Assembly (NCBI RefSeq): GCF_900167335.1
Contig: NZ_FUXI01000017.1
Location: 1-64,000, forward strand
Source: Pilibacter termitis
GTDB taxonomy: Bacteria; Bacillota; Bacilli; Lactobacillales; Streptococcaceae
Direction of reading: 5' to 3'
DNA length: 64,000 bases
Shown: one piece after another, positions 21,903 to 33,642 of the stretch
Layout: each line of letters opens with the position of its first letter
Numbering within the stretch: the first letter of the stretch is position 1
Notes under the pieces: model-generated
What the model saw: only the letters and a program-made list of their open reading frames with translations
Databases searched by the model: none
What the model was told of the DNA's origin: nothing
Made by a program: the position numbers and the translations under genes

Positions 21903-22805
21903 TTGATTAAAGGAATTTTTCCAGATTCCGTTCTTCAAATGGGAACGATTTTTCTTTCGATTATTATTGAGGCTTTGCCATTCGTATTGCTTGGTTGTCT
22001 TGTTTCAGGTGGCTTGCAAGTATTTTTAACTGCTGAGCGTGTAAAGAAACTTCTTCCAAAAAATAAATTTCTCTCTATTCTTACTGGCTGTATATTGGGC
22101 TTTTTCTTTCCAAGTTGTGAATGTGGAATTGTGCCGATTGTCAATCGTTTTGTTGAGAAAAAAGTGCCAGAATATACTGCATTTGCCTTTATGCTGACCG
22201 CACCAATTGTTAATCCAGTCGTTATTTTCTCGACCTATATTGCCTTTGGAAATACTTATCGTTTTGCGTTGTTGCGTGTGATTGGTTCATTTTTAGTAGC
22301 CATTGCAATTGGTAGCTGGATTGCTTACTTTTACAAAGGAAGTATCCGAAAAATTGCTACACATCAGCATATTCACGAACATCAGCACGAGGATTTTCAC
22401 AATCTTTCGTTTTTCAAACGAGTGTGGCAAGTATTGGAACACGCAATCGAAGAATTTTTTGACACAGGTCGCTATTTGATTTTCGGCAGTTTAGCAGCAA
22501 GTGTTATGCAGACATATTTACCTACAAAAATCATTTATACGTTAGGAAGTAATAAACTATTGGCAATTCCGTTGTTACTTTTTCTTGCATTTGTGCTAAG
22601 TCTATGTAGCGAGGCGGACGCATTTATCGGCTCAAGTTTGGTTTCACTATTCGGAACGGCTCCGATTGTTGCCTTTTTGGTTTTTGGTCCAATGGTTGAT
22701 ATTAAAAATATTTTGATGATGAAACGCTACTTTCAGCCAAAATTTATTCTGCAAATGATGTTAGGAATCTTTTTCATTACGTTTATCTATGCGTTGTGTT
22801 TGTAG
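21903..22805 (+). CDS. UPF0718/DUF318 family permease (YcgR type)
   Basis: 300 residues with about eight membrane segments. FFFPSCECGIVPIVNRFV in the second block, with its paired cysteines, and SLCSEADAFIGSSLV in the C-terminal half are family signatures. A histidine-rich cytoplasmic loop (HQHIHEHQHEDFH, near residues 155-168) suggests metal contact. TTG at 21903 is the start, with AGAGGTG upstream. It is followed 15 bases later by its usual partner. The transported substrate is unknown. Confidence 0.88.
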   Translation: MIKGIFPDSVLQMGTIFLSIIIEALPFVLLGCLVSGGLQVFLTAERVKKLLPKNKFLSILTGCILGFFFPSCECGIVPIVNRFVEKKVPEYTAFAFMLTAPIVNPVVIFSTYIAFGNTYRFALLRVIGSFLVAIAIGSWIAYFYKGSIRKIATHQHIHEHQHEDFHNLSFFKRVWQVLEHAIEEFFDTGRYLIFGSLAASVMQTYLPTKIIYTLGSNKLLAIPLLLFLAFVLSLCSEADAFIGSSLVSLFGTAPIVAFLVFGPMVDIKNILMMKRYFQPKFILQMMLGIFFITFIYALCL

Positions 22806-22820
22806 GAAGGAGAAATATGT

Positions 22821-23636
22821 ATGCTACGTTTTTTAATTTTATCTGGCTATTTTGAGTTGATGATGTACTTACAAGTATCTGGAAAACTAGACCAATATAT
22901 CAACGCACATTATCGCTATTTGGCTTATTTATCAATGATTCTTTCCTTTCTTCTCGCTGTCGTGCAACTCATTCTTTGGGTAAAAGGGGAAAAAGGAAAA
23001 ACTCATTCACACTTGACAACGGTCAGCTCAAAAATCTCAGCCTATATTTTGCTTGCAATTCCGTTATTTGTCGGCTTATGCTTTCCGACAGTATCGTTAA
23101 ATGCCTCAATCGTCGATACCAAGGGCTTTCATTTCCCCGTCTCTGAGGAATCAACGGGGGATAGTCAAGTGAAAACACAATATTTACGTCCTGATACATC
23201 TATTTATTTCAACAAAGGCGACTATGCCGATATGATGAATATGGTCAAAAAGAAATATATTGAGCATGATACTATTAAAATTACCGACGAAAATTATTTG
23301 GAAGTAATGGAGATGATTTATGATTTTCCTAGTGAATTTATCGGAAAAAAAGTGGAATATACAGGATTTTACTATGCCGATCCTGAAAAAACAAAAAATC
23401 TAGGTTTCTTATTCCGTTTCGGCATTATTCATTGTGTTGCTGATAGTGGAGTGTTCGGTTTGCTAAACATTTTCCCAGAGGACTTTTCTGCTGAAAAAAA
23501 CGATTGGGTGCAAGTAAAAGGGACAATTGAAATGCAATTTTACAAACCGTTCAATCGAAACTTGCCTGCTGTAAAAGTGGAAGTGGCGAAAAAAGTAAAT
23601 CCTCCTCAAAATCAATATGTTTATAGGAGTTTTTAG
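22821..23636 (+). CDS. TIGR03943-family putative permease subunit (YcgQ type)
   Basis: 271 residues. Two to three N-terminal membrane helices (LRFLILSGYFELMMYLQVSG onward) are followed by a soluble domain from about residue 110 with CVADSGVFGLLN and a strand-rich end. This is the regular partner of UPF0718 permeases (YcgR/YcgQ in Bacillus). An AAGGAGAAATATGT site precedes the ATG. Both genes are plus-strand between tex and the dga genes. Role unknown; some homologues sit in zinc-responsive loci. Confidence 0.85.
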   Translation: MLRFLILSGYFELMMYLQVSGKLDQYINAHYRYLAYLSMILSFLLAVVQLILWVKGEKGKTHSHLTTVSSKISAYILLAIPLFVGLCFPTVSLNASIVDTKGFHFPVSEESTGDSQVKTQYLRPDTSIYFNKGDYADMMNMVKKKYIEHDTIKITDENYLEVMEMIYDFPSEFIGKKVEYTGFYYADPEKTKNLGFLFRFGIIHCVADSGVFGLLNIFPEDFSAEKNDWVQVKGTIEMQFYKPFNRNLPAVKVEVAKKVNPPQNQYVYRSF

Positions 23637-23649
23637 AAACTCTCAAAAG

Positions 23650-23686
23650 AAAAACGTTGCACTGAATTTACAATGCAACGTTTTTT
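23650..23686. terminator. Bidirectional terminator
   Basis: AAAACGTTGCA and TGCAACGTTTTTT form a strong hairpin between the convergent YcgQ-type and dgaF genes, with A-run and T-run on its two sides. Confidence 0.85.
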
Positions 23687-23693
23687 CTAATTC

Positions 23694-24437
23694 TTATTTA
23701 TTCAAAGTTTTTCTCATCATAGCGATTAAAGTTTTCACATCTTCTACTTTTGTATCGCCTGACTCTTTGTCGATAATTGAGCTATATACGTGAGGAATAA
23801 TTTTCTTCACGCCAGCATCTACTGCGATTTGTACGATTTCTTCAAAGTTTTCAAGGTCAATTCCACCAGTTGGCTCAAGGTAGAAATCATTTTCCGCACA
23901 GGCTTTAGCTACTGCTTTGTATTCTTCAATATGCTCTAAACCTTTCATGTTGAAGAATTTGATTGAACTTCCGCCCATATCTTTCAAAAGAGCAATTGCT
24001 GTTTCGATTGGCACAATTCCTTTTGGTGCTTGTGAAGAAAGAGGTCCTGTTGCAAGATTCACCATTCCTACTTCACCAGTTGGTGAAACAAGACCGTTAA
24101 TAACAGAATCATTTTGTCCTAAAGCCTCACGAGATGCACCTACTCCAGTAAATACTTGGTTCACGTGTTGAGGTTGTAAAACTTTTGCCAAACGTGTTAC
24201 CATTGCAGATTGGTTTGGATCTCCTGCACCAAGTCCAACAGAAAGTGCGTTATCAGTCGCCTCAATGTAGCGTTTCATGTCTTCGATTGCTGCTTCGTCT
24301 GTATCATAATTTTTTGAAAGCACACCTAGCACAACATATCCTTCTGCTGCTTCGTACAATTCTTTTGCGTTTTCAACTGAGTTTGCCAATACGTTTAGGC
24401 ATAGACGATCTTCTAAATAATTTGGTGTTTTTTGCAT
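23694..24437 (-). CDS. dgaF: DgaF-type 2-dehydro-3-deoxy-phosphogluconate aldolase
   Basis: 247 residues of the EF_0839/DgaF family, a class I aldolase that splits 2-keto-3-deoxygluconate-6-phosphate to pyruvate and glyceraldehyde-3-phosphate. Recognisable segments are GLGAGDPNQSAMV, GVGASREALG, SSIKFFNMKGLEH (the lysine is the likely Schiff base) and LEPTGGIDLENF. It is the last gene of the PTS unit and follows dgaE after about 35 bases. An AAGGAAGGA site precedes the ATG. DgaE and DgaF were characterised in Salmonella D-glucosaminate use; the substrate here could differ. Confidence 0.85.
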   Translation of the reverse strand: MQKTPNYLEDRLCLNVLANSVENAKELYEAAEGYVVLGVLSKNYDTDEAAIEDMKRYIEATDNALSVGLGAGDPNQSAMVTRLAKVLQPQHVNQVFTGVGASREALGQNDSVINGLVSPTGEVGMVNLATGPLSSQAPKGIVPIETAIALLKDMGGSSIKFFNMKGLEHIEEYKAVAKACAENDFYLEPTGGIDLENFEEIVQIAVDAGVKKIIPHVYSSIIDKESGDTKVEDVKTLIAMMRKTLNK

Positions 24438-24471
24438 GATAAAATTCCTTCCTTTTTTGACGATTTTTATT

Positions 24472-25569
24472 TTAAGCTGGCATTATTTGCGATAGCTTTT
24501 CTACGATTTCATTCATTTCATTTTCATCAACCGCTCGAATATCAAATTCAATAATTCCATTGTTTGCTTGATATTCTCTTGTATAAACAGCTAAATCTCC
24601 CAATTTTAACTGAGCGATTACCTCTTTTGCCGAAATATTTTCGGCTACTACTTTGACACTTGCACGGAAAATATCTCGTCCTGCAGCATCTTGTACCATT
24701 TTCACCTCTAAGCCGTTGATTTCGTTTAACGCAGCGATAAATGGTGTAAGGCGAGCAATCATAGATTCTTTTGACTCACTTCCGTTTGCCAAATACTCCT
24801 CAAGAGCGGTAACAAGCCCAATGATATTGTCTTTTCCGATTTTCATTGCTCGACCGATTCCCTTGTTTTGAAGTTGAATCCAAGGAATATATGGATTGCG
24901 ACCGATAATCAACGCAGAGCTTGGTGCCTCAATTGCTTTTGCACCGCTATAAATGACAAGGTCAGCACCTTGATTGTAGTATTTATACAAATCTTCTTCT
25001 GCTGCCGCATCAACAATCAGCGGTAAGTCATGTTTTTTCGCAACTTCGCTCATTTCTGCAATGCTTAGCATACTTTTTTGAACGGTGTGGTGGCTTTTAA
25101 TGTAAAGTAGAGCAGCTGTGTTTTCAGTGATTTCCATTTCTACTTGCTCTGGTGTACATTCATTTGCCCAGCCAGCCTCAACGAGCTGTCCGCCACCAAG
25201 AGAAGTCATCACTTCCACTCCTGTACCGTAATTGACGTTATGTCCTTTCGGCATAATGATTTCACGTTTGGTAATGCGTGAAGTATTGGAGTGTGTCACG
25301 TGGTACAAATCCCCTTGACCGATGATAGCCGCAGTAGACAGAGCAATCGCAGCACTTGCACTAGAGACGATTGTTGCATTTTCAACGTCTAGCATTTTTG
25401 CTACATACTCACCACTTTTGACGGTCAAATCTGCCATTTCAAAAAATGTTTGTCCTGCTGCTTTTTGCGATTCAGCAACCGCATCACTTACTTTTGAAAC
25501 ACCTAAAATCGTCATTTTTCCACTTGCATTAATCACTCTTTTTAAACCAAATTTTTCGTGAATATTCAT
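24472..25569 (-). CDS. dgaE: DgaE-type PLP-dependent amino-sugar-acid-phosphate ammonia-lyase (SelA fold)
   Basis: 365 residues in the SelA-like aminotransferase fold I group. VIYSGAKAIEAPSSAL carries the lysine that would bind pyridoxal phosphate. Other typical segments are INASGKMTILGVSKVSDAV, NATIVSSASAAIALSTAA and PLIVDAAAEEDL with the cofactor-contacting aspartate. Salmonella DgaE converts D-glucosaminate-6-phosphate to 2-keto-3-deoxygluconate-6-phosphate and ammonia, feeding DgaF, the next gene. The AAGGAG site and ATG are clear. It is cotranscribed with the amidohydrolase upstream. Confidence 0.85.
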   Translation of the reverse strand: MNIHEKFGLKRVINASGKMTILGVSKVSDAVAESQKAAGQTFFEMADLTVKSGEYVAKMLDVENATIVSSASAAIALSTAAIIGQGDLYHVTHSNTSRITKREIIMPKGHNVNYGTGVEVMTSLGGGQLVEAGWANECTPEQVEMEITENTAALLYIKSHHTVQKSMLSIAEMSEVAKKHDLPLIVDAAAEEDLYKYYNQGADLVIYSGAKAIEAPSSALIIGRNPYIPWIQLQNKGIGRAMKIGKDNIIGLVTALEEYLANGSESKESMIARLTPFIAALNEINGLEVKMVQDAAGRDIFRASVKVVAENISAKEVIAQLKLGDLAVYTREYQANNGIIEFDIRAVDENEMNEIVEKLSQIMPA

Positions 25570-25630
25570 GTGTTTCTCCTTTGTTCTAATTGCATAGTGC
25601 GAAGCTAGGCAATTGCTGCCCCTCTCGCTT

Positions 25631-26728
25631 TTAAATATTATAAACTTTTCCAGCGATAATTGCTGTTTTTGGTATGATTTTTTGATTTACTTCTTTTGTT
25701 GCACCATTTGAGTCACGTAATTCTTTTGCCTCGTTTGCTACTTCAAAAAGTGTGAAATCTGCATCAAAACCTTCTTTTACTTCACCTTTCGTGGTGAAAC
25801 CTAGGGCTTTTGCAGGTGCTTTCGTGACACGAGTCACGACTTCTTCTAGCGAATAGCCAACGAACATCAATTTTTCCATGGTCGTTGCCATATTATAAAC
25901 AGGACCATATTCACGATTACGAGAGTAAATATCTGTACTAATCGTATCTGCTAAAATATCTTCTTCTTTCGCACGGAGAGCCACTTCAAAATTAAAACTA
26001 TCTGTTCCATGACCAATGTCGAAATGTACACCGTTATGATAAGCAGTTTTTGCAAATTCTTTAATTTTTCCGTTCGTATCTAAAATGCCATTGTCCTTAC
26101 CATTAAAACAATGCGTTACAATATCGCCTTTTTCTAAGTAAGTAAACAATTCATCAAGAGCAACAGGAGCCGTTCCAATATGCACCATTAAAGGCAAGTT
26201 TACCTTTTTTTGCAACTCTTTTGCCATAACTAGAGGCTTCACGCCGTTTTCACCGATAACACTCTTACTCATGCGAGCTTTTATCCCGATAATAAATTCA
26301 GGTAGTTCGTTGATACGTTCGATGTTTTTCGTCTCATTTACTCTACTCAAATCTGAAAGTTCATCTTGTGTCACAATACCATTTTTAGAAATATTCAAGA
26401 GTGCATACACATTTGTTTTTGCGTTTTTGGCAATTTCGTAAAAATCTCGAATGTTATTTTCTCCAGTTGAACCAGCGTCAACAATCGTTGTCACACCATT
26501 TTCCACACCAACTTTGTCTGGATAGTCATAGTACAAATCCATTTTTTCAAAGCAATGCACGTGTGCATCAATCCAACCTGCTGAAAGAAAAAGTCCGTTT
26601 GCATCAAAAATTTCTCGTGCCTCATCATGAATTTCTTGAGCTACTTTTTCAATTTTTCCATTTGTAACTGCGACTGAAATCGGCTGGTTGTCAATAGTTG
26701 TCGCATTTTTAATTATTAAATCGTACAT
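25631..26728 (-). CDS. Amidohydrolase/deacetylase (EF_0837 family)
   Basis: About 365 residues in the amidohydrolase TIM-barrel superfamily. Metal ligands are visible: the HVH pair in SAGWIDAHVHCFEK, a likely carboxylated lysine in IGIKARMS, histidines in LPLMVHIG and IVTHCFNG, and the aspartate in DIGHGTDSF. Other family members in similar clusters are annotated as dihydroorotase-like or N-acyl hydrolases. ATG at 26728 is selected by AGGTGG upstream. Lying directly before dgaE, it may remove an N-acetyl group to expose the amine that DgaE eliminates. That step is inference. Confidence 0.85.
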   Translation of the reverse strand: MYDLIIKNATTIDNQPISVAVTNGKIEKVAQEIHDEAREIFDANGLFLSAGWIDAHVHCFEKMDLYYDYPDKVGVENGVTTIVDAGSTGENNIRDFYEIAKNAKTNVYALLNISKNGIVTQDELSDLSRVNETKNIERINELPEFIIGIKARMSKSVIGENGVKPLVMAKELQKKVNLPLMVHIGTAPVALDELFTYLEKGDIVTHCFNGKDNGILDTNGKIKEFAKTAYHNGVHFDIGHGTDSFNFEVALRAKEEDILADTISTDIYSRNREYGPVYNMATTMEKLMFVGYSLEEVVTRVTKAPAKALGFTTKGEVKEGFDADFTLFEVANEAKELRDSNGATKEVNQKIIPKTAIIAGKVYNI

Positions 26729-26754
26729 TTTTTGTTCCACCTACTTATATTTCT

Positions 26755-27840
26755 TTAATTCGCCTTGAACTTGAATTTACTCCAAGGTTTTATATAGTCT
26801 AAAAGAATGCGTTCTTCTTCTTTGATAGAACCAATTTTATTTTTTCTTGTGTCGTTATGAGCTTGCAAAACCAATTGTAATTCATTTTTGTATTTGCCAA
26901 ACGCATCATTTCCGACAACTACATCTCCACGTTGAAATGTGATTGTATTGTTATGTGCAGGATTGTCTTCCTTGTATTCTTTTCTCACTTGGGTTGAGCG
27001 AGCCATTACATCTGCAATGTCCCCTCGTCTAAAGTGCTGATTATCAAACGCAACACGTTTTTCTACTTCATTTACTTCCTCAAGCAACTCAAGTGAAAAT
27101 TCGATTTGATAACGATTAATTTTCCCAAGGGCAATCAATTCATCTTTATGTGCATAAGCATTACCAATAATCACATCATCAATTAAATTTGTCGCAAACA
27201 GATGTTTTGCCTGCACTTCAATTGGTAAATGCCTGTGCATTTCAAGTGTCGGCAAGCCGTCATTAATATCCCAAGGACCGCCTTTTGCTACTTGACTTGT
27301 CACAAAAGCAGCTGTACGAATCCCATGATTTTTAAATCGTTTTGAACAACGAGTGAAGAAATCAAGCGGTAAAGCCGTGTTTTCCTGCGGATAAAAATTG
27401 TGACAACCATAAATGAATGGCTTATTCGCTTGATAGGTCAAAATATTATCCAAGTAAGCAACATCATTGCTCATATTGAGTTCAATGATTAAGCCATAAG
27501 GGTTAAATGAAAGCATTGACTCCTTATTGCCGTCAAACCCAGCATCTAAACGCAATCCGTCCGCTCCTAATTCGTGAAAGAAACTCAAATCATCATAGGA
27601 AATGCCTAGCTCATCAAAAATATTCGGTGCAATATCAAGCATAACTTCATAATCTAAATCCTTTGCCACTCGAATAATTTTTGAAAATTTCTTCGCTACC
27701 ACTTCACGACCTTCAGTGACTTCGAGCATAGACATAAAAATCCGCTCAAAACCTTGCTTTTTCGCAAATGTGATATACTCAACATCTTCTTCAAATTTAC
27801 TTTTATCTGGGTAAAGAGAAACACCTAATCGTCTATACAT
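26755..27840 (-). CDS. DUF871 / GH170 family glycosidase (MupG-like)
   Basis: About 361 residues. LGVSLYPDKSKFEEDVEYIT begins the TIM-barrel and GADGLRLDAGFDGN, ELNMSNDVAYLDNI and YGCHNFYPQENTALPL are family hallmarks. The small C-terminal domain (from about 240) contains RRGDIADVMARSTQVRK. DUF871 includes Staphylococcus MupG, a 6-phospho-N-acetylmuramidase that splits PTS-imported MurNAc-6P disaccharide. ATG at 27840 follows GGGAG and overlaps the small membrane gene by eight bases. With a PTS EIIC upstream and sugar-acid enzymes downstream, it likely cleaves an imported phosphorylated disaccharide; the true substrate is unknown. Confidence 0.87.
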   Translation of the reverse strand: MYRRLGVSLYPDKSKFEEDVEYITFAKKQGFERIFMSMLEVTEGREVVAKKFSKIIRVAKDLDYEVMLDIAPNIFDELGISYDDLSFFHELGADGLRLDAGFDGNKESMLSFNPYGLIIELNMSNDVAYLDNILTYQANKPFIYGCHNFYPQENTALPLDFFTRCSKRFKNHGIRTAAFVTSQVAKGGPWDINDGLPTLEMHRHLPIEVQAKHLFATNLIDDVIIGNAYAHKDELIALGKINRYQIEFSLELLEEVNEVEKRVAFDNQHFRRGDIADVMARSTQVRKEYKEDNPAHNNTITFQRGDVVVGNDAFGKYKNELQLVLQAHNDTRKNKIGSIKEEERILLDYIKPWSKFKFKAN

Positions 27841-28099
27841 TTTTGTTCTCCCATTCGTCAATAGTTTTTCTGTATCGCCATAAAATAACACATCCCGCAC
27901 AAATCGTAAAAATGATTGGAATGTAGAGCAAGCGTATCAAAACTGCCAAAAACAAACCAAGCAAAATGAACGCAAGTTGGATAAGAAGAAGTTTCCATAG
28001 AGCCACTTTTACAAATCGTTGTGGTAATTTTCCTTTTTCCAAATAAATTAGAGCAGATACAAATGTGATAAGCGAAACAATTGCAATATCATAAGTCAT
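27833..28099 (-). CDS. Small membrane protein of the PTS operon, unknown function
   Basis: 88 residues with three predicted membrane helices (IAIVSLITFVSALIYL, LLLIQLAFILLGLFLAVL and LYIPIIFTICAGCVILW) and a charged tail. I do not recognise a family. AAGGAG precedes the ATG. It lies 127 bases after the EIIC stop and overlaps the GH170 gene, so it is certainly expressed with them. It could assist the EIIC, but nothing in the sequence proves that. Bases 28100-28226 hold no gene. Confidence 0.7.
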   Translation of the reverse strand: MTYDIAIVSLITFVSALIYLEKGKLPQRFVKVALWKLLLIQLAFILLGLFLAVLIRLLYIPIIFTICAGCVILWRYRKTIDEWENKNV

Positions 28100-28226
28100 T
28101 CTTGTTCTCCTTGTCTAGTTGAGAGGAGCAAGAGGGGAGTCGCTGTTCGCAATGCCACTTGAAACAAAGTGTGGTAGCAAGTAAATAGCATGACTCACTA
28201 CGACCACCCTTATCGCTCCTTTTCAC

Positions 28227-29531
28227 TTATTCTCCTTCTTCACTTATAAGTTGTTGTTTTTCAAACACTTTGAAGAATGGATAATAAATTACTAGACTTA
28301 CAAAGAAATTGACAACGACTAGGATAGCCGCAATAATGTGCCAATTGGTTACCATCATCGCTCCAATAGGTGAGGGAACAGTAAAGACTGTTCTTGATAC
28401 GGTCATTGGAATGAGATGTGTGATTGTCGCAATATACGCAATAACGGTCATCACAAGTGGTGAGAGGACAAACGGAATAGCAAGTGTCGGATTCATTACA
28501 ATCGGTGCTCCGAAAATAATCGGCTCATTGATGTTAAATAATCCCGGCAAAAATCCGATTTTCCCTAATTCCTTGAGATAGGCAGACTTAGAACGCAAGA
28601 ATAGACAAACTAACGCAAGTGTTGCTCCTGCTCCACCAATCCAGACGAACCACTGTAAGAACATTTCCGTAAAAATATTCGGCATTTGTGTTGCTGGTGT
28701 ATTGTTCGCAAAAGCGTCCATATTTTCCGCAATTGAAGTTTCCCAAAATGGTCGAATGACTGGACCCATAATGGCAGGACCATGAATCCCCAAAATCCAG
28801 AAGAAACAGATGAGGAAAACTGTCACAAGTCCACCAAACAAACTATTTCCTGCAAGGAAACTTTGAAGTGGCATAAGCAAATTGGAAAGTGTCGCATTAA
28901 TATCAAAACCGAGCATATGACGAATGACCCAGAAAAGAATCAAATTCGTTGCTGCTGGCATTAATGCAACAAATGAATTGCTTACTTCTGGTGGCACGCC
29001 TTCTGGCATTTTAATTGTAATGTTTTTCTCTTTCATAAAGCGATAAATTTCAACTGATATAATAGCTGTTACAATCGCACCAAATAGTGATTGAGCTCCG
29101 AGGTTTGCAATGTTTAAATAACGTCCTACTGGTACAACTTCCGTTTGAACCGTTGTTTTAGCTACTTCTTCAAACAAGCGAACAGGTTTAATGCTTGTTA
29201 CAATAAAAGACATGACCGCAACAATTCCTGCGGTTAAAGTGTCTAACTTGTAACTTTTCGCAAGTGAAGTGGCAATCCCAAACGTTGCATAAAGTGCCAA
29301 AATCCCAACTGTAAAGCGATAGGGAATGTCTAGTATCGGCAAATAAGGAGCTAATTTTTCAGCAATACTAGGGATTGGGAAGTTCAAAAAGATAACAAAA
29401 AATGAACCGACCAATGTAAGTGGCAATGTGGAGATGATTCCTTTTCGGACAGCCAACATATGTCGTTGACCACCAATTTTTTGAGCGACAGGGGAAACTT
29501 TTTCTTCCAAAAACAGTATAAGTTTATTCAT
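28227..29531 (-). CDS. PTS sugar transporter subunit IIC, lactose/cellobiose (CelB-like) family
   Basis: 434 residues with about ten membrane segments. The LacC/CelB family signature appears in FFWILGIHGPAIMGPVIRPFWE and in GFLPGLFNINEPIIFGAPIVMNP, where the NEP motif forms the sugar site. Family members import beta-linked disaccharides with phosphorylation. No EIIA or EIIB is encoded in this unit, so these must be supplied by other loci. AAAGGAG precedes the ATG. It is the first gene of the EIIC-membrane-GH170-amidohydrolase-dgaE-dgaF unit. Confidence 0.92.
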   Translation of the reverse strand: MNKLILFLEEKVSPVAQKIGGQRHMLAVRKGIISTLPLTLVGSFFVIFLNFPIPSIAEKLAPYLPILDIPYRFTVGILALYATFGIATSLAKSYKLDTLTAGIVAVMSFIVTSIKPVRLFEEVAKTTVQTEVVPVGRYLNIANLGAQSLFGAIVTAIISVEIYRFMKEKNITIKMPEGVPPEVSNSFVALMPAATNLILFWVIRHMLGFDINATLSNLLMPLQSFLAGNSLFGGLVTVFLICFFWILGIHGPAIMGPVIRPFWETSIAENMDAFANNTPATQMPNIFTEMFLQWFVWIGGAGATLALVCLFLRSKSAYLKELGKIGFLPGLFNINEPIIFGAPIVMNPTLAIPFVLSPLVMTVIAYIATITHLIPMTVSRTVFTVPSPIGAMMVTNWHIIAAILVVVNFFVSLVIYYPFFKVFEKQQLISEEGE

Positions 29532-29849
29532 ACGTTCTCCTTTCGAGATTTCACTTTTGGCTACCCATACGAAATCTCAGACACTTGACCTTTCAGTCAA
29601 ATAGCGACATACAACATTTCCTTACTCAAAGATAGTTTTGTTTCGTTTTGGAACGGCGAAATCTGTTCTCTACCACGTCCATTGGGTGTATTTTTTACTT
29701 CCCTTCACTTTGTTTAGAACAAATTTCTTTTGGATAAATCAAACGTTTTCTATACCTAGATAATAACATTATAATTTTGAAAAGTAAATAAAATAATCCA
29801 TTATTTTATAGTTTTTTATCAAAAAGTTTTCATCAAAAACTACCAAGCA
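29532..29849 (-). promoter_or_regulatory. Promoter and long leader of the PTS unit
   Basis: This 318-base gap has no gene. On the minus strand a TATAAT box lies at 29768-29773, with no good -35 box. A 14-nt site (29737-29750, AATCAAACGTTTTC on the plus strand) lies just downstream and also occurs at the PRD-operon promoter. The predicted leader is over 200 bases, long enough for further control. Confidence 0.55.
29737..29750. promoter_or_regulatory. Shared 14-nt operator-like site, PTS unit
   Basis: The complement of GAAAACGTTTGATT, identical to 33645-33658. It contains the palindrome AAACGTTT and resembles a CcpA cre site. It begins 18 bases downstream of the -10 box. Confidence 0.5.
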
Positions 29850-29862
29850 TTAAACTTGGTAG
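29840..29862 (-). terminator. Terminator overlapping the GntR stop codon
   Basis: CTACCAAG and CTTGGTAG form a perfect 8-bp stem with the stop codon in the loop, followed on the minus strand by five T. Confidence 0.7.
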
Positions 29863-30536
29863 TCGATGAAATACTCTTGCTTAGAAGAGTCGTAAATAGA
29901 AATCGTATATTCTATTAATTTTCCTCGGTTATCATACGCATACCGTTTACGTTCTAATGCAATGTCATCAGAAAGTTGAAGTTGTTCTTTGAGCATATCT
30001 TCTACTCTTAACGCACGAAAAGAATCCTTGATATAATCAATATACAAGCCACGGTCGGCTAAAAAAGAATAGAATGAAAAATTCTTATCCTCTTTTTTCG
30101 GCAATCCTTTATCGTTTGTCAAAGAAAAATAATGCTTCATGAAAATGGCAGCCTCACCATCTAAGTAGTAAATACGGTGAATCTCATAAACATCTTCATA
30201 ACGAAATTCATGAGGGACTCCTTTGCATTTTCCTACATAAACAACTTTGTTTTCGACTTTGATTCCTTCGTCTTCTAAAAGTTTCGTGTAAGTATGTGCT
30301 TTGCTCAAAACGTTGAACGGGCGATTGCTAATCACTCGCGTTCCTTTTCCGCTTTGTTTGTGCAAATACCCTTCTTGTGCTAATAGCTCTACTGCTTTTC
30401 TGATAGTGATCTTACTGACAGAAAACATCTCAACCAAATCGTTTTCCGTTGGAAAAAGAGAGTCCACTGGATATTTTTTGTTGATAATGTCTCGTTTTAA
30501 TTGATCACTAATTTCTTGATATAAAATACCTTTCAT
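29850..30536 (-). CDS. GntR-family regulator with UTRA domain (HutC subfamily)
   Basis: About 228 residues. The N-terminal winged helix holds LKRDIINKKYPVDSLFPTEN and ITIRKAVELLAQEGYLHKQ, with the KGTRV wing. The C-terminal UTRA ligand domain spans about residues 75-228 and usually binds a phosphorylated sugar. ATG at 30536 follows ATGGAG; an earlier in-frame ATG is at 30548. It stands between the two catabolic/transport units and has its own terminator, so it probably controls both. A CTTATA-ctt-TATAAG palindrome lies just upstream. Confidence 0.92.
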   Translation of the reverse strand: MKGILYQEISDQLKRDIINKKYPVDSLFPTENDLVEMFSVSKITIRKAVELLAQEGYLHKQSGKGTRVISNRPFNVLSKAHTYTKLLEDEGIKVENKVVYVGKCKGVPHEFRYEDVYEIHRIYYLDGEAAIFMKHYFSLTNDKGLPKKEDKNFSFYSFLADRGLYIDYIKDSFRALRVEDMLKEQLQLSDDIALERKRYAYDNRGKLIEYTISIYDSSKQEYFIDYQV

Positions 30537-30554
30537 TATTTTCTCCATTTCATT

Positions 30555-30569
30555 CTTATACTTTATAAG
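30555..30569. promoter_or_regulatory. Palindrome at the GntR gene start
   Basis: CTTATA-ctt-TATAAG lies between a TATAAT box (minus strand, near 30574-30579) and the start codon. It is placed as an autoregulatory operator would be. Confidence 0.35.
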
Positions 30570-30648
30570 TCTATTATAACAAAACTTTCGCCCATGATAA
30601 GAATTTTTTCCCTTTTTTCCCTATTTTTTTCTATTTCAGTAATAATAG

Positions 30649-30709
30649 TACGGTTTTTATACTCAAGCAAACTTTTATTCATAAAAAAGTTTGCTTGAGC
30701 AATACCGTA
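30649..30709 (-). terminator. Long hairpin after the DUF4310 gene
   Basis: A perfect 15-bp stem (30662-30676 with 30685-30699; arm CTCAAGCAAACTTTT) has extra outer pairing TACGGT/ACCGTA. It lies between the DUF4310 stop and the GntR promoter. The T-tract after it is weak, so it may work as a terminator or as an mRNA 3' stabiliser. Confidence 0.6.
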
Positions 30710-30735
30710 TTTAATTTAAAATAAATTTCCTTTGA

Positions 30736-31425
30736 TTATTTCAAGACTACTGGGAAAATCGCTCCTAGAATCATTGCTCCTAGAATTGCTCCACCAGCAA
30801 TTGGTTTTTGCCATTTGTAGAATACCAAGGCACCAATCGTTGCACCAATTCCAATCGGAATAGAGGCAAGTCCTGCACTCAAAATGATAAGTGGGCCTAA
30901 GAAACGTCCTGCTGAATTTCCAGCTCCCATCATCACGTCAGCTCCAAATGTAGCATCTCCACCACTAATCGTAAATTTACGAATACCAGTAATTACACCA
31001 CCGACAATCAAGCCAAGTACAGCTCCTGTAATCAATGAAAGGGCAAAGTTTTCAATTGGTGCTTTCCAGCCAATGCTAAGGAAAATAGCAGGTACACCAA
31101 TCCCGATACCTGTAAGAATTGAACCACCTAAGTCCAAAATCCCAACAAGTGAACCCTCTAAAATACGTGCAAATAAGAAACTTGCACCAAATGCAGCTGC
31201 AGCTCCGTAGCTCCCGCCATCAAGACCTGCTTTCAACATGGCAACGATTGACACCTCGTTAAATGCTCCAACACCATATTTTACATACATATGTGTTCCT
31301 GCAAATACCGCCATAGCCATCATACCAACGATAATTGGAAATGCCCAATCAGCATACCAAAAACTTTTATGCTTTAATTCTTGAACTTCTTCTTGTTCTT
31401 TTTCCCACTGCTCTTTCGTTTCCAT
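30736..31425 (-). CDS. DUF4310 family membrane protein (EF_0833 type)
   Basis: 229 residues. A charged N-terminal stretch of about 20 residues precedes at least five glycine-rich membrane segments (YGAAAAFGASFLFARILEGS, GGSILTGIGIGVPAIFLSIG, GGDATFGADVMMGAGNSAGR). The family is known only as a conserved companion of DUF4311, DUF4312 and SFCGS proteins. The gene order and sizes recall mannose-type PTS EIIC/EIID pairs, but no direct homology can be shown here. AGGAAAG precedes the ATG. Function unknown, transport likely. Confidence 0.8.
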   Translation of the reverse strand: METKEQWEKEQEEVQELKHKSFWYADWAFPIIVGMMAMAVFAGTHMYVKYGVGAFNEVSIVAMLKAGLDGGSYGAAAAFGASFLFARILEGSLVGILDLGGSILTGIGIGVPAIFLSIGWKAPIENFALSLITGAVLGLIVGGVITGIRKFTISGGDATFGADVMMGAGNSAGRFLGPLIILSAGLASIPIGIGATIGALVFYKWQKPIAGGAILGAMILGAIFPVVLK

Positions 31426-31446
31426 TGCTTTCTTCCTTTCGAAAAA

Positions 31447-32226
31447 TTATTTTTGTCCCATCATTTTGTGAATATCGCTTAACCATTCTGGTGCTTGCAA
31501 TTTGAATTGTTCTAGTGCTGTTAAATCAAATCCTCTAAAGAATCCACTTAGAATGAATAAAATAAATACTGTTGAAATCATGATTTTTGTCAAGCGAGTC
31601 CAGCCGAGTTCATCAATTCCTTTTCCGACCAAAATTCCAAGAACTACACCGGGAACGGCATTTCCCATAATTAATTGAGCCAAGCCACCAAACAATGTTC
31701 CCCAGAAACCAGTGCGTTTTCCAGCGTCAAGTGCTGCCAACCAGAATAAAACTGGCATTACAGTGTTAATCAAAAGCGTTGCCGCTGGCACCAATACTGC
31801 TACTGCTGTTACTTTGAGTGATTCTGGAATAGCAGTTGCGGTAGTGTTCAAAAATGCAACAACTAACGCTCCGATAATTGCCCCAGCAATCCCCATTGCT
31901 TTTGGATTGTGAACGGTTTGTCCCATATCCTTGTTTTTCGCAAGCAAACTTGCTGCTGCCCAGTTTGGCACAACACGGTGGGTAACGTCTTGCGTGAAAG
32001 CTCCTGCACCAACTGCTGATGCCCAAGCGTTAAAGAAAAATCCTAAGCCGAATGAAAAATGACTTGCCGCATCTCCTTCACACGCATTCATTTCCCCAAG
32101 CGTTCGGAATGCACCTAATGCTTGAGTTGTCGGTGCGTGAAACATTCTTGCTGCCCCAACACCTGCTGCGAAACCTAGTAATCCACCAATACATAGTGAT
32201 TTTAATAAAATAATCAATACTTCCAT
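31447..32226 (-). CDS. DUF4311 family membrane protein (EF_0832 type)
   Basis: About 259 residues with six to seven hydrophobic segments rich in Gly and Ala. GVGAARMFHAPTTQALGAFR and ACEGDAASHFSFGLGFFFNA are conserved-looking polar/aromatic loops, and GWTRLTKIMISTVFILFILS is a C-terminal helix. ATG at 32226 is selected by AAGGAGAAG; an upstream ATG at 32262 is less likely. It is encoded 21 bases before DUF4310, and the two probably form a membrane complex. Function unknown. Confidence 0.8.
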   Translation of the reverse strand: MEVLIILLKSLCIGGLLGFAAGVGAARMFHAPTTQALGAFRTLGEMNACEGDAASHFSFGLGFFFNAWASAVGAGAFTQDVTHRVVPNWAAASLLAKNKDMGQTVHNPKAMGIAGAIIGALVVAFLNTTATAIPESLKVTAVAVLVPAATLLINTVMPVLFWLAALDAGKRTGFWGTLFGGLAQLIMGNAVPGVVLGILVGKGIDELGWTRLTKIMISTVFILFILSGFFRGFDLTALEQFKLQAPEWLSDIHKMMGQK

Positions 32227-32437
32227 TTTCTTCTCCTTATTATTTATTTTTTTCAAAATCATGAAAAATTCTTTTGCTTGCGTGTCAAATTAACGTTCTT
32301 TTGCAATCTTCCTGTTTTCCAACTTTTTAAATTAAGAATGACTTCCTACTTCTTCTTTAAAAAAGCGGAACAGCAAGGAAAATAGTGTATGATGAAAAAT
32401 AGGCACACATCATTTTTTCATGAATTTTTCCTCAATG

Positions 32438-32501
32438 AATAGAAACAGTTGTTTCTATTGAAAACTTATAAATAAACAAACTGCTACACTCGTTTGTTTA
32501 T
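32438..32501 (-). repeat. Two perfect hairpins between the DUF4312 and DUF4311 genes
   Basis: ATAAACAAAC/GTTTGTTTAT (32472-32481 with 32492-32501) spans the DUF4312 stop codon. AATAGAAAC/GTTTCTATT (32438-32446 with 32451-32459) follows. Neither has a proper T-run. They may be RNA-processing or attenuation sites setting the ratio of soluble to membrane proteins. The rest of the 220-base gap (32263-32437) shows no gene. Confidence 0.55.
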
Positions 32502-32837
32502 CAATGGAATTTTGATACTGTCGTCAGCTGCTTTTGATACTTCTTTGTACTGAACACTCTCAGCATCAAATCGAGTAATTTCAACTTCAATTTCCAGTGA
32601 TACGGAATAACTCACACGTTCACGAGGGAAAAAGAAAAATAGAAATTTCTCATGTACCACTTGCTTTTCAGCAGAAAGAATGTTGATGTCAATTGGTTCT
32701 ATTTTCAAAATAACATCTTCACTTTCTTTTAGCACTTTCGACTGAATTTTATTCAAGGCAGAGGCGAATGCTGCCTTTTTGTTTTCGCCCTCACCTTGAA
32801 CTGTAATTTTTTCTTTGAAACGTTTTACTTCACTCAT
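32484..32837 (-). CDS. DUF4312 family soluble protein (EF_0831 type)
   Basis: About 117 residues, soluble, alpha/beta. The segments EKITVQGEGENKKAAFASAL and LFFFFPRERVSYSVSLEIEV mark the family. Its function is not known. ATG at 32837 lies one base after the SFCGS stop, with GGAGCA in the SFCGS 3' end as ribosome site, so translation is tightly coupled. Its conserved place between a small Cys-containing protein and two membrane proteins suggests a cytoplasmic part of a transporter. Confidence 0.8.
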   Translation of the reverse strand: MSEVKRFKEKITVQGEGENKKAAFASALNKIQSKVLKESEDVILKIEPIDINILSAEKQVVHEKFLFFFFPRERVSYSVSLEIEVEITRFDAESVQYKEVSKAADDSIKIPLINKRV

Positions 32838-32838
32838 C

Positions 32839-33195
32839 TTATGCTCCATGTTTTTTGATGAATGCTTCAGTCAATCGTTTCCCTAACTCTTCTGTATCCA
32901 TAAAACCAAAGCCTAGAACAGTCATACCGTCATTAATTGCTGTAACTCCTTCATCAATTGAACGCATACCATGACGCTCTTTGTAGCCATATTTGTTTGC
33001 AGCAGTCAATGCACCTGCACCACCACTTCCACAAAATGAAAGCCCCATATCTGCGTTTTCTTTTTGCATTACATCTCCAAGTTTCATATCAGCTGCCATA
33101 CCCGGAACAACTACTGCACGTCCTCCTGCTGCCTCTACACCTTTGGCAATGTTTTGCCCTTTGCCCATTCTGTCTGCGATTACTACTGTTACCAT
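32839..33195 (-). CDS. Glycine-rich SFCGS family protein (EF_0830 type)
   Basis: 118 residues. A Rossmann-like start (TVVIADRMGKGQNIAKGVEA) and the hallmark loop LSFCGSGGAGA (residues about 52-62, single Cys55 in the loop) define the family. The one conserved cysteine in a glycine-rich loop and the small size invite comparison with PTS EIIB proteins, which are phosphorylated on cysteine; that parallel is my inference. AAAGGATG precedes the ATG. It is the second gene of the PRD-led unit. Confidence 0.82.
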   Translation of the reverse strand: MVTVVIADRMGKGQNIAKGVEAAGGRAVVVPGMAADMKLGDVMQKENADMGLSFCGSGGAGALTAANKYGYKERHGMRSIDEGVTAINDGMTVLGFGFMDTEELGKRLTEAFIKKHGA

Positions 33196-33233
33196 TACTT
33201 TAACATCCTTTCTTCTGCGAATACTCGCCTATT

Positions 33234-33572
33234 TTAATTGATATTTCCTCTTGCATTTTCAATGTGCAATGCAAGTAAAAACCGTTCGTTTTGTTGCAAA
33301 TTCTCAACTTGTTCCATGATTTTTAATGCCAATTCAATTGACTCTTTTGATAGCTCTGCAAAAAGTTCCTCATCCATTTCTGGTAAAGTTTCTCCCGTTA
33401 CAGAACGGAAAATCATTGCATCTACATGGTTGATAAAAATTTGCCATTGCAATTCATCAGGAAGTATTTCCTCCTGTTGCAACAAGTCATGTGCAAAGAA
33501 AATGACTTGTTTTAATTTTTCTCCATAATTAGAGTTTTGTTCACTTATCAGTTCGTTAATTCTTGTTTCCAT
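33234..33572 (-). CDS. Stand-alone PRD-domain protein (EF_0829 type)
   Basis: About 112 residues forming a single PTS regulation domain: VIFFAHDLLQQEEILPDELQ, then FINHVDAMIFRSVTGETLP and a helical end with ALHIENARGN. PRDs are normally phosphorylated on histidines by HPr or EIIB in antiterminators and activators; here the domain has no partner. Histidines are present in FAHD, NHVD and LHIE. ATG at 33572 follows AAAGGAAG; an in-frame ATG at 33632 lacks a site. It opens the DUF4310-4312 unit, tying that system to PTS signalling. Confidence 0.8.
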   Translation of the reverse strand: METRINELISEQNSNYGEKLKQVIFFAHDLLQQEEILPDELQWQIFINHVDAMIFRSVTGETLPEMDEELFAELSKESIELALKIMEQVENLQQNERFLLALHIENARGNIN

Positions 33573-33642
33573 TTTACTTCTTCCTTTTTTCTGTTTTTTT
33601 GCCTGCTTTTTAGATACATTTTGAAAACGCATCTTTCATTTT

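Follow-up and report, generated by a model that had tools for sequence, protein, structure and literature searches.

Several described systems share parts with the gene cluster analyzed here, which occupies positions 33632..23694 (minus strand) of a 64,000-nucleotide stretch of Pilibacter termitis DNA (the window). Its six-gene 3' half (29531..23694) encodes a phosphotransferase system (PTS) component EIIC, a small membrane protein, a GH170 glycosidase, an amidohydrolase, DgaE and DgaF. In the Salmonella dga operon (DgaABCDEF), DgaE and DgaF serve the catabolism of D-glucosaminate, and in the Salmonella ammonia-lyase (DGL) three arginines hold the 6-phosphate and histidines are catalytic (PMC9529869). 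Many bacteria produce chitin-active lytic polysaccharide monooxygenases (LPMOs), yet what becomes of the oxidized ends has been worked out for a single route, the marine ong pathway, in which N-acetylglucosaminic acid (GlcNAc1A) is catabolized by deacetylation, deamination and phosphorylation of 2-keto-3-deoxygluconate (KDG) (PMC9537276).

The operon of the window shares DgaE and DgaF, with their conserved active-site residues, with the dga operon; it lacks the mannose-family PTS DgaABCD and has instead a cellobiose-type EIIC, the GH170 enzyme, the amidohydrolase and an upstream module of four DUF-type genes. The likeness to the ong pathway (PMC9537276, PMC12017989) lies in the predicted substrate (GlcNAc-GlcNAc1A), deacetylation, loss of ammonia and 2-keto-3-deoxy-6-phosphogluconate (KDPG). 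The marine route relies on a periplasmic GH20, a sodium symporter, the D-aminoacylase-type OngB, OngC and a kinase acting last, whereas the route predicted for the window has phosphorylating uptake, GH170 and an amidohydrolase of another subtype, with phosphorylation probably preceding DgaE.

The genes of the 3' half are as follows:

28227..29531, minus strand: PTS EIIC of the lactose/cellobiose type (TIGR00410, 375 bits, cut-off 236)
27833..28099, minus strand: 88-aa membrane protein between EIIC and GH170, without a family match
26755..27840 (open frame from 27900), minus strand: GH170 6-phosphoglycosidase (PF19200 MupG_N, 318 bits; PF05913 MupG_C, 123 bits)
25631..26740, minus strand: amidohydrolase of the EF_0837/cog3964 family (TIGR03583, 519 bits; relative of 2ICS)
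24472..25569, minus strand: DgaE, a pyridoxal phosphate (PLP)-dependent glucosaminate-6-phosphate ammonia-lyase (TIGR01437, 545 bits, cut-off 385; relative of 7LC0)
23694..24437, minus strand: DgaF, a KDPG aldolase (NF047796, 390 bits, cut-off 300; relatives 3LM7, 3M0Z and 3NZR)

A preliminary description of this DNA had placed EIIC, GH170, the amidohydrolase, DgaE and DgaF here on the minus strand, and the profile matches agree; its gene list overlooked the 88-aa membrane protein and the whole upstream half of the cluster (33632..29850).

Proposed pathway for an oxidized disaccharide

In our judgment, the chances are about even that the operon 29531..23694 serves to catabolize a disaccharide whose reducing end has been oxidized; the most likely candidate is chitobionic acid (GlcNAc-beta-1,4-GlcNAc1A, where GlcNAc is N-acetylglucosamine) generated by C1-oxidizing chitin LPMOs. 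From gene content, order and boundaries, family membership, conserved residues and the linkage of a kinase to GH170, we infer the following substrates and sequence of deacetylation and phosphorylation: (i) EIIC, together with EIIA and EIIB encoded elsewhere, would import chitobionate and phosphorylate the non-reducing GlcNAc at C6; (ii) GH170 would cleave the product into GlcNAc-6-P, passed to NagA/NagB, and GlcNAc1A; (iii) the amidohydrolase would convert GlcNAc1A into acetate and glucosaminate; (iv) a PfkB sugar-acid kinase (here that of a KdgK-like gene elsewhere in the genome) would phosphorylate glucosaminate; (v) DgaE would remove ammonia, yielding KDPG; and (vi) DgaF would split KDPG into pyruvate and glyceraldehyde-3-P. 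The SFCGS-DUF4312-DUF4311-DUF4310 module may provide another point of entry, whose substrate is probably the amino-sugar acid as a monomer. PTS import of a phospho-disaccharide, GH170 cleavage, deacylation and completion by DgaE/DgaF had been proposed before, and they fit all tests run; the kinase step was missing from that scheme, and it is needed because the acid can only be the reducing-end half, which GH170 would release unphosphorylated. The substrate, earlier considered not described, has precedents: chitobionic acid and GlcNAc1A are known from LPMO action, though not via this route (PMC9537276).

In DgaE, residues H160, H161, R302, R331, R345 and K211 are conserved, and the PLP lysine, the histidine pair and the three phosphate-binding arginines are all present; at least 97% of 105 sequences retain the residues that correspond to Arg301/332/346 and His162/163 in Salmonella DGL (PMC9529869). 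Since the acid would leave GH170 unphosphorylated while DgaE keeps its phosphate-binding residues, a kinase is expected where GH170 supplies the acid. Among distinct clusters, those containing GH170 had a PfkB gene in 22 of 24 cases and those lacking GH170 in 1 of 66 (raw counts, in which clusters may share phylogeny); the gene is located either after dgaF (Enterococcus) or between dgaE and dgaF (Lactococcus). KDG kinases act on sugar acids, and because the cluster PfkB resembles them, the unphosphorylated GH170 product is probably a sugar acid.

This linkage bears on the idea that two pathways share one operon, with EIIC and GH170 serving an ordinary disaccharide (e.g., diacetylchitobiose) and the amidohydrolase with DgaE/DgaF serving an amino-sugar acid that enters via the four-DUF module. 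Such a division would agree with the occurrence of the core without GH170 in most genomes and with the role of a ChbE-type GH170 in the use of ordinary diacetylchitobiose (PMC12791066). However, the KDG-kinase-like gene joins the cluster exactly with GH170, which is expected only if GH170 frees an unphosphorylated sugar acid. Moreover, in Lactococcus raffinolactis and L. chungangensis the genes EIIC-GH170-amidohydrolase-DgaE-PfkB-DgaF form a block of their own upstream of the DUF module, directly preceded in L. raffinolactis (L083) by a GntR gene, and the P. termitis genome already holds a solo ChbE-type GH170. We consider two separate pathways unlikely.

The amidohydrolase is proposed to be the GlcNAc1A deacetylase. 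At least 97% of 111 sequences share H60, H62, K154, H187, H210 and D270, the residues that we would expect to serve as ligands in an amidohydrolase with two metals. The Cys ligand of the OngB-type site (subtype V, Cys/His/His; PMC12017989) is absent from this conserved set, and D-aminoacylases are distant matches only. If the enzyme deacetylates GlcNAc1A, its role and that of OngB would have arisen separately within the superfamily.

Identity of the substrate

The P. termitis genome (2.79 Mb in 59 contigs) was interrogated family by family. The phylogenetic tree of GH170 placed the cluster enzyme, ChbE (represented by the chb operon of Lacticaseibacillus chiayiensis) and the solo paralogue on one side, split with 100/100 support from the MurQ-linked MupG proteins; the cluster GH170 forms a sister group to ChbE rather than falling inside the ChbE clade (support 84-85). 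ChbE is genetically required for diacetylchitobiose use (PMC12791066). The chb operon of Lacticaseibacillus is also similar in combining a cellobiose-type EIIC and GH170 with a GntR-type regulator, and it differs in containing DUF3284 and its own EIIA/EIIB and in feeding NagA; the EIICs share just 32% identity.

The tree also bears on cell-wall recycling, in which GH170 would be a MupG acting on MurNAc-6P-GlcNAc (MurNAc, N-acetylmuramic acid). MupG is the founding member of GH170, and the mupG-murQ-murP system of Staphylococcus aureus likewise joins a PTS with a GH170 enzyme acting on a phospho-disaccharide (PMC6262408). That system, however, has a GH170 of the other clade, a MurP-type EIIBC and an etherase; the P. 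termitis cluster contains no MurQ, and a mupG-murQ-murP-murR operon stands apart in the same genome. A cell-wall origin of the substrate, one of the sources envisaged in the preliminary description, was rejected on the position in the tree and the separate mur operon, and we regard this reading as highly improbable.

An association with LPMOs would connect the operon with oxidized chitin. Among the sampled genomes of the order, LPMO_10 was present in 15 of the 16 with a GH170-containing cluster; the figure was 6 of 25 for genomes having just the core and 36 of 253 for those in which the cluster is absent. The LPMO EF0362 of Enterococcus faecalis is C1-oxidizing and chitin-active (PMC5094447), and the P. 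termitis genome encodes a large GH18 protein whose start resembles that of a secreted protein.

Several observations weigh against the chitobionate route. The P. termitis genome itself has no LPMO_10 match, being the sole exception among those 16, and LPMO is absent from four Lactococcus genomes with the EIIC-GH170 pair and from Enterococcus sp. BWB1-3. In the Enterobacterales sample the trend is weak (16 of 41 core-cluster genomes versus 63 of 255 others, p = 0.06), and the LPMO statistic is phylogenetically non-independent, with the positive genomes coming from few genera. Searches with Pfam and NCBIfam profiles revealed no EIIA or EIIB gene in the cluster (three PTS_IIA matches lie elsewhere in the genome). 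DgaE scores 389.5 bits against the narrower curated equivalog NF047797, below its cut-off of 600, and the amidohydrolase lacks an assigned sugar substrate. Neither the cluster of the window nor that of L. reticulitermitis (L081) contains a PfkB gene; a KdgK-like PfkB (156 bits to a cluster kinase) is encoded elsewhere in the P. termitis genome (C28:53164-54087). LPMO as a universal partner was rejected, the link holding mainly for GH170 clusters of Enterococcus-type genomes.

Genomes that carry the pair and lack LPMO could belong to scavengers of LPMO products or could use a different substrate. The latter would leave the scheme intact and change its acid: the N-acylated amino-sugar acid end might be, e.g., a galactosamine epimer or a fragment of host glycan oxidized by reactive oxygen species, and not LPMO-made chitobionate. 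The LPMO-less P. termitis and Lactococcus genomes fit this, as do the many small, LPMO-negative genomes that carry the core cluster in the Enterobacterales sample. Against it stand the strong association with LPMO in Enterococcus-type genomes and the grouping of the cluster GH170 with the diacetylchitobiose enzyme, and the exceptions are explicable by the scavenging of neighbors' LPMO products; another acid thus appears rather unlikely to us.

That the operon is a phosphorylating counterpart of the oxidized-chitin pathway, built around an annotated yet unexplained cluster, is in our view as probable as its converse. If so, a second, unrelated route for oxidized chitin would exist in Enterococcus and its relatives, filling the gap beyond the marine pathway, and a function would be available for EF_0829-EF_0839, four DUF families, a cog3964 amidohydrolase and a GH170 clade. 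Aeromonas has been described as possessing LPMOs and lacking clear OngB/OngC (PMC11653859); a cluster of this family, AHA_3910-3917, occurs there according to TIGR model names.

The conserved core cluster and its DUF module

In transcription order, the whole cluster encodes a PRD protein, SFCGS, DUF4312, DUF4311 and DUF4310 proteins and a GntR/UTRA regulator, followed by EIIC, the 88-aa membrane protein, GH170, the amidohydrolase, DgaE and DgaF. The features of the 5' half (33632..29850) are as follows:

33234..33632, minus strand: PRD-domain protein of the EF_0829/AHA_3910 family (TIGR03582, 109 bits, cut-off 69; Pfam PRD, 27 bits)
32839..33195, minus strand: SFCGS protein of the EF_0830 family (PF14272, 204 bits), with a predicted RpiB/LacAB fold and an invariant Cys55
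32484..32849, minus strand: small DUF4312 protein of the EF_0831 family (TIGR03578, 119 bits; PF14189, 107 bits)
31447..32262, minus strand: DUF4311 membrane protein of the EF_0832 family (PF14188, 372 bits; TIGR03580, 463 bits)
30736..31425, minus strand: DUF4310 membrane protein of the EF_0833 family (PF14187, 332 bits; TIGR03579, 355 bits)
30662..30699, no strand assigned: inverted repeat with a perfect 15-bp stem, likely a terminator between the DUF4310 and GntR genes
29850..30548, minus strand: GntR/UTRA regulator (PF00392 and PF07702)
29825..29870, minus strand: terminator hairpin at the end of the GntR gene (-20.7 kcal/mol, z -7.2)

The TIGR models matched here carry the names EF_0829-EF_0839 (E. 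faecalis) and AHA_3910-AHA_3917 (Aeromonas), and PRD829, SFCGS, DUF4312, DUF4311, DUF4310, the amidohydrolase, DgaE and DgaF are all present together. Judged by these matches, the cluster at 33632..23694 corresponds to the uncharacterized EF_0829-EF_0839 cluster of E. faecalis (TIGR03577-TIGR03583). The latter was compared in a single-contig genome carrying it (L071), which we took to be E. faecalis because the start of its amidohydrolase is almost exactly that of PDB 2ICS. The gene set is shared and the order nearly so; the window differs in having a GntR gene between DUF4310 and EIIC and in lacking an adjoining large PRD regulator and a PfkB gene after dgaF. No open paper assigning a function to EF_0829-EF_0839 or DUF4310/4311 was found, and for EF0839 a role in amino-sugar metabolism has been suggested, nothing more (PMC7701990).

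DUF4311 was found in 42 of 295 sampled genomes of the order and at 523 candidate places in the genome collection. In a comparison of 117 neighborhoods (101 distinct), the four DUF genes rarely stood without the amidohydrolase, DgaE and DgaF; together these genes make up a core that is conserved in Lactobacillales, Bacillales, Enterobacterales and Chromobacterium. Only some clusters contain EIIC and GH170, a pair gained or lost jointly where the amidohydrolase, DgaE and DgaF are also present; in Enterococcus the pair is inserted between DUF4310 and the amidohydrolase. The gene order is not due to chance, because the same order recurs in many genomes. The GntR gene of the window stands where most other clusters have the large PRD regulator. 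At three loci (L048, L059 and L062) a PRD/SFCGS/DUF4312/DUF4311/DUF4310 module stands without the amidohydrolase, DgaE or DgaF nearby, and in L048 the large PRD regulator is fused to the PRD829 protein as one 736-aa protein.

DUF4310 and DUF4311 are likely transporter parts, because these membrane proteins are constantly tied to a catabolic set otherwise without a transporter. The AlphaFold2 model of DUF4311 is all-helical and weak (predicted local distance difference test score, pLDDT, 73; built from 10 sequences), and a search of the PDB with this model gave zero matches. The SFCGS model (pLDDT 92.6) matched RpiB/LacAB proteins in all its top PDB hits (best 6mu0, E 4e-5, TM score 0.71), and comparison with RpiB/LacAB family hidden Markov models gave weak values (E 0.02-0.1). 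The invariant Cys55 lies within a glycine-rich loop, which presumably resembles the CGTG loop of RpiB. SFCGS as a PTS EIIB was unsupported: the fold search returned RpiB/LacAB and did not match known EIIB, and no EIIA, EIIB or EIIC domain was detected in the four-DUF module with Pfam or NCBIfam PTS models. It is conceivable, if doubtful, that DUF4310/DUF4311 together with SFCGS and DUF4312 constitute a hitherto undescribed transporter, regulated by the PTS, that imports amino-sugar acids already phosphorylated; with the EIIC-GH170-kinase addition it would make a complete phosphorylating pathway by which Gram-positive bacteria of guts and insects use LPMO-oxidized chitin. A phosphorylating DUF transporter would account for core clusters that have the phosphate-requiring DgaE yet no kinase. 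SFCGS (32839-33195) also weakly matches DUF2620 (E 0.13), which we take to be the family of E. coli YhfU; the yhf operon may contain a related pair of small protein and membrane protein.

Transcription units and neighboring features

The EIIC-to-DgaF block is likely cotranscribed, since its intergenic gaps are at most 127 nt and strong terminator hairpins lie on either side, the distal one being:

23645..23695, minus strand: terminator hairpin 3' of dgaF (-19.9 kcal/mol, z -6.7)

With strong hairpins after DUF4310, at the end of the GntR gene and after dgaF, the cluster is likely divided into three transcription units: PRD to DUF4310, GntR, and EIIC to DgaF. A promoter scan gave a signal no better than chance, and an Rfam search of the leaders found nothing above threshold (a sub-threshold mir-965 hit is a chance match). 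In the 127-nt gap between the EIIC and 88-aa protein genes (28095-28235, minus strand), folding beats that of shuffled sequences (z -2.6), and the gap could hold a processing or regulatory element.

The 88-aa membrane protein has a counterpart in the same position in most GH170 clusters. A second EIIC with an adjoining 88-aa membrane protein was observed in L056 (1498-3097), beside a 462-aa gene reading like a GH1 glycosidase, and EIICs of this subfamily may generally be partnered by small membrane proteins such as that at 27833-28099.

Outside the cluster and convergent with the operon, the window encodes an ArsP_1-type permease and a DUF1980 two-domain protein (21903-23636, plus strand). Short open frames resembling SSYEGLKSGGCSQCHLKL occur in several spots of the P. 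termitis genome (L169, L170, L171 and L173), which suggests a dispersed intergenic repeat.

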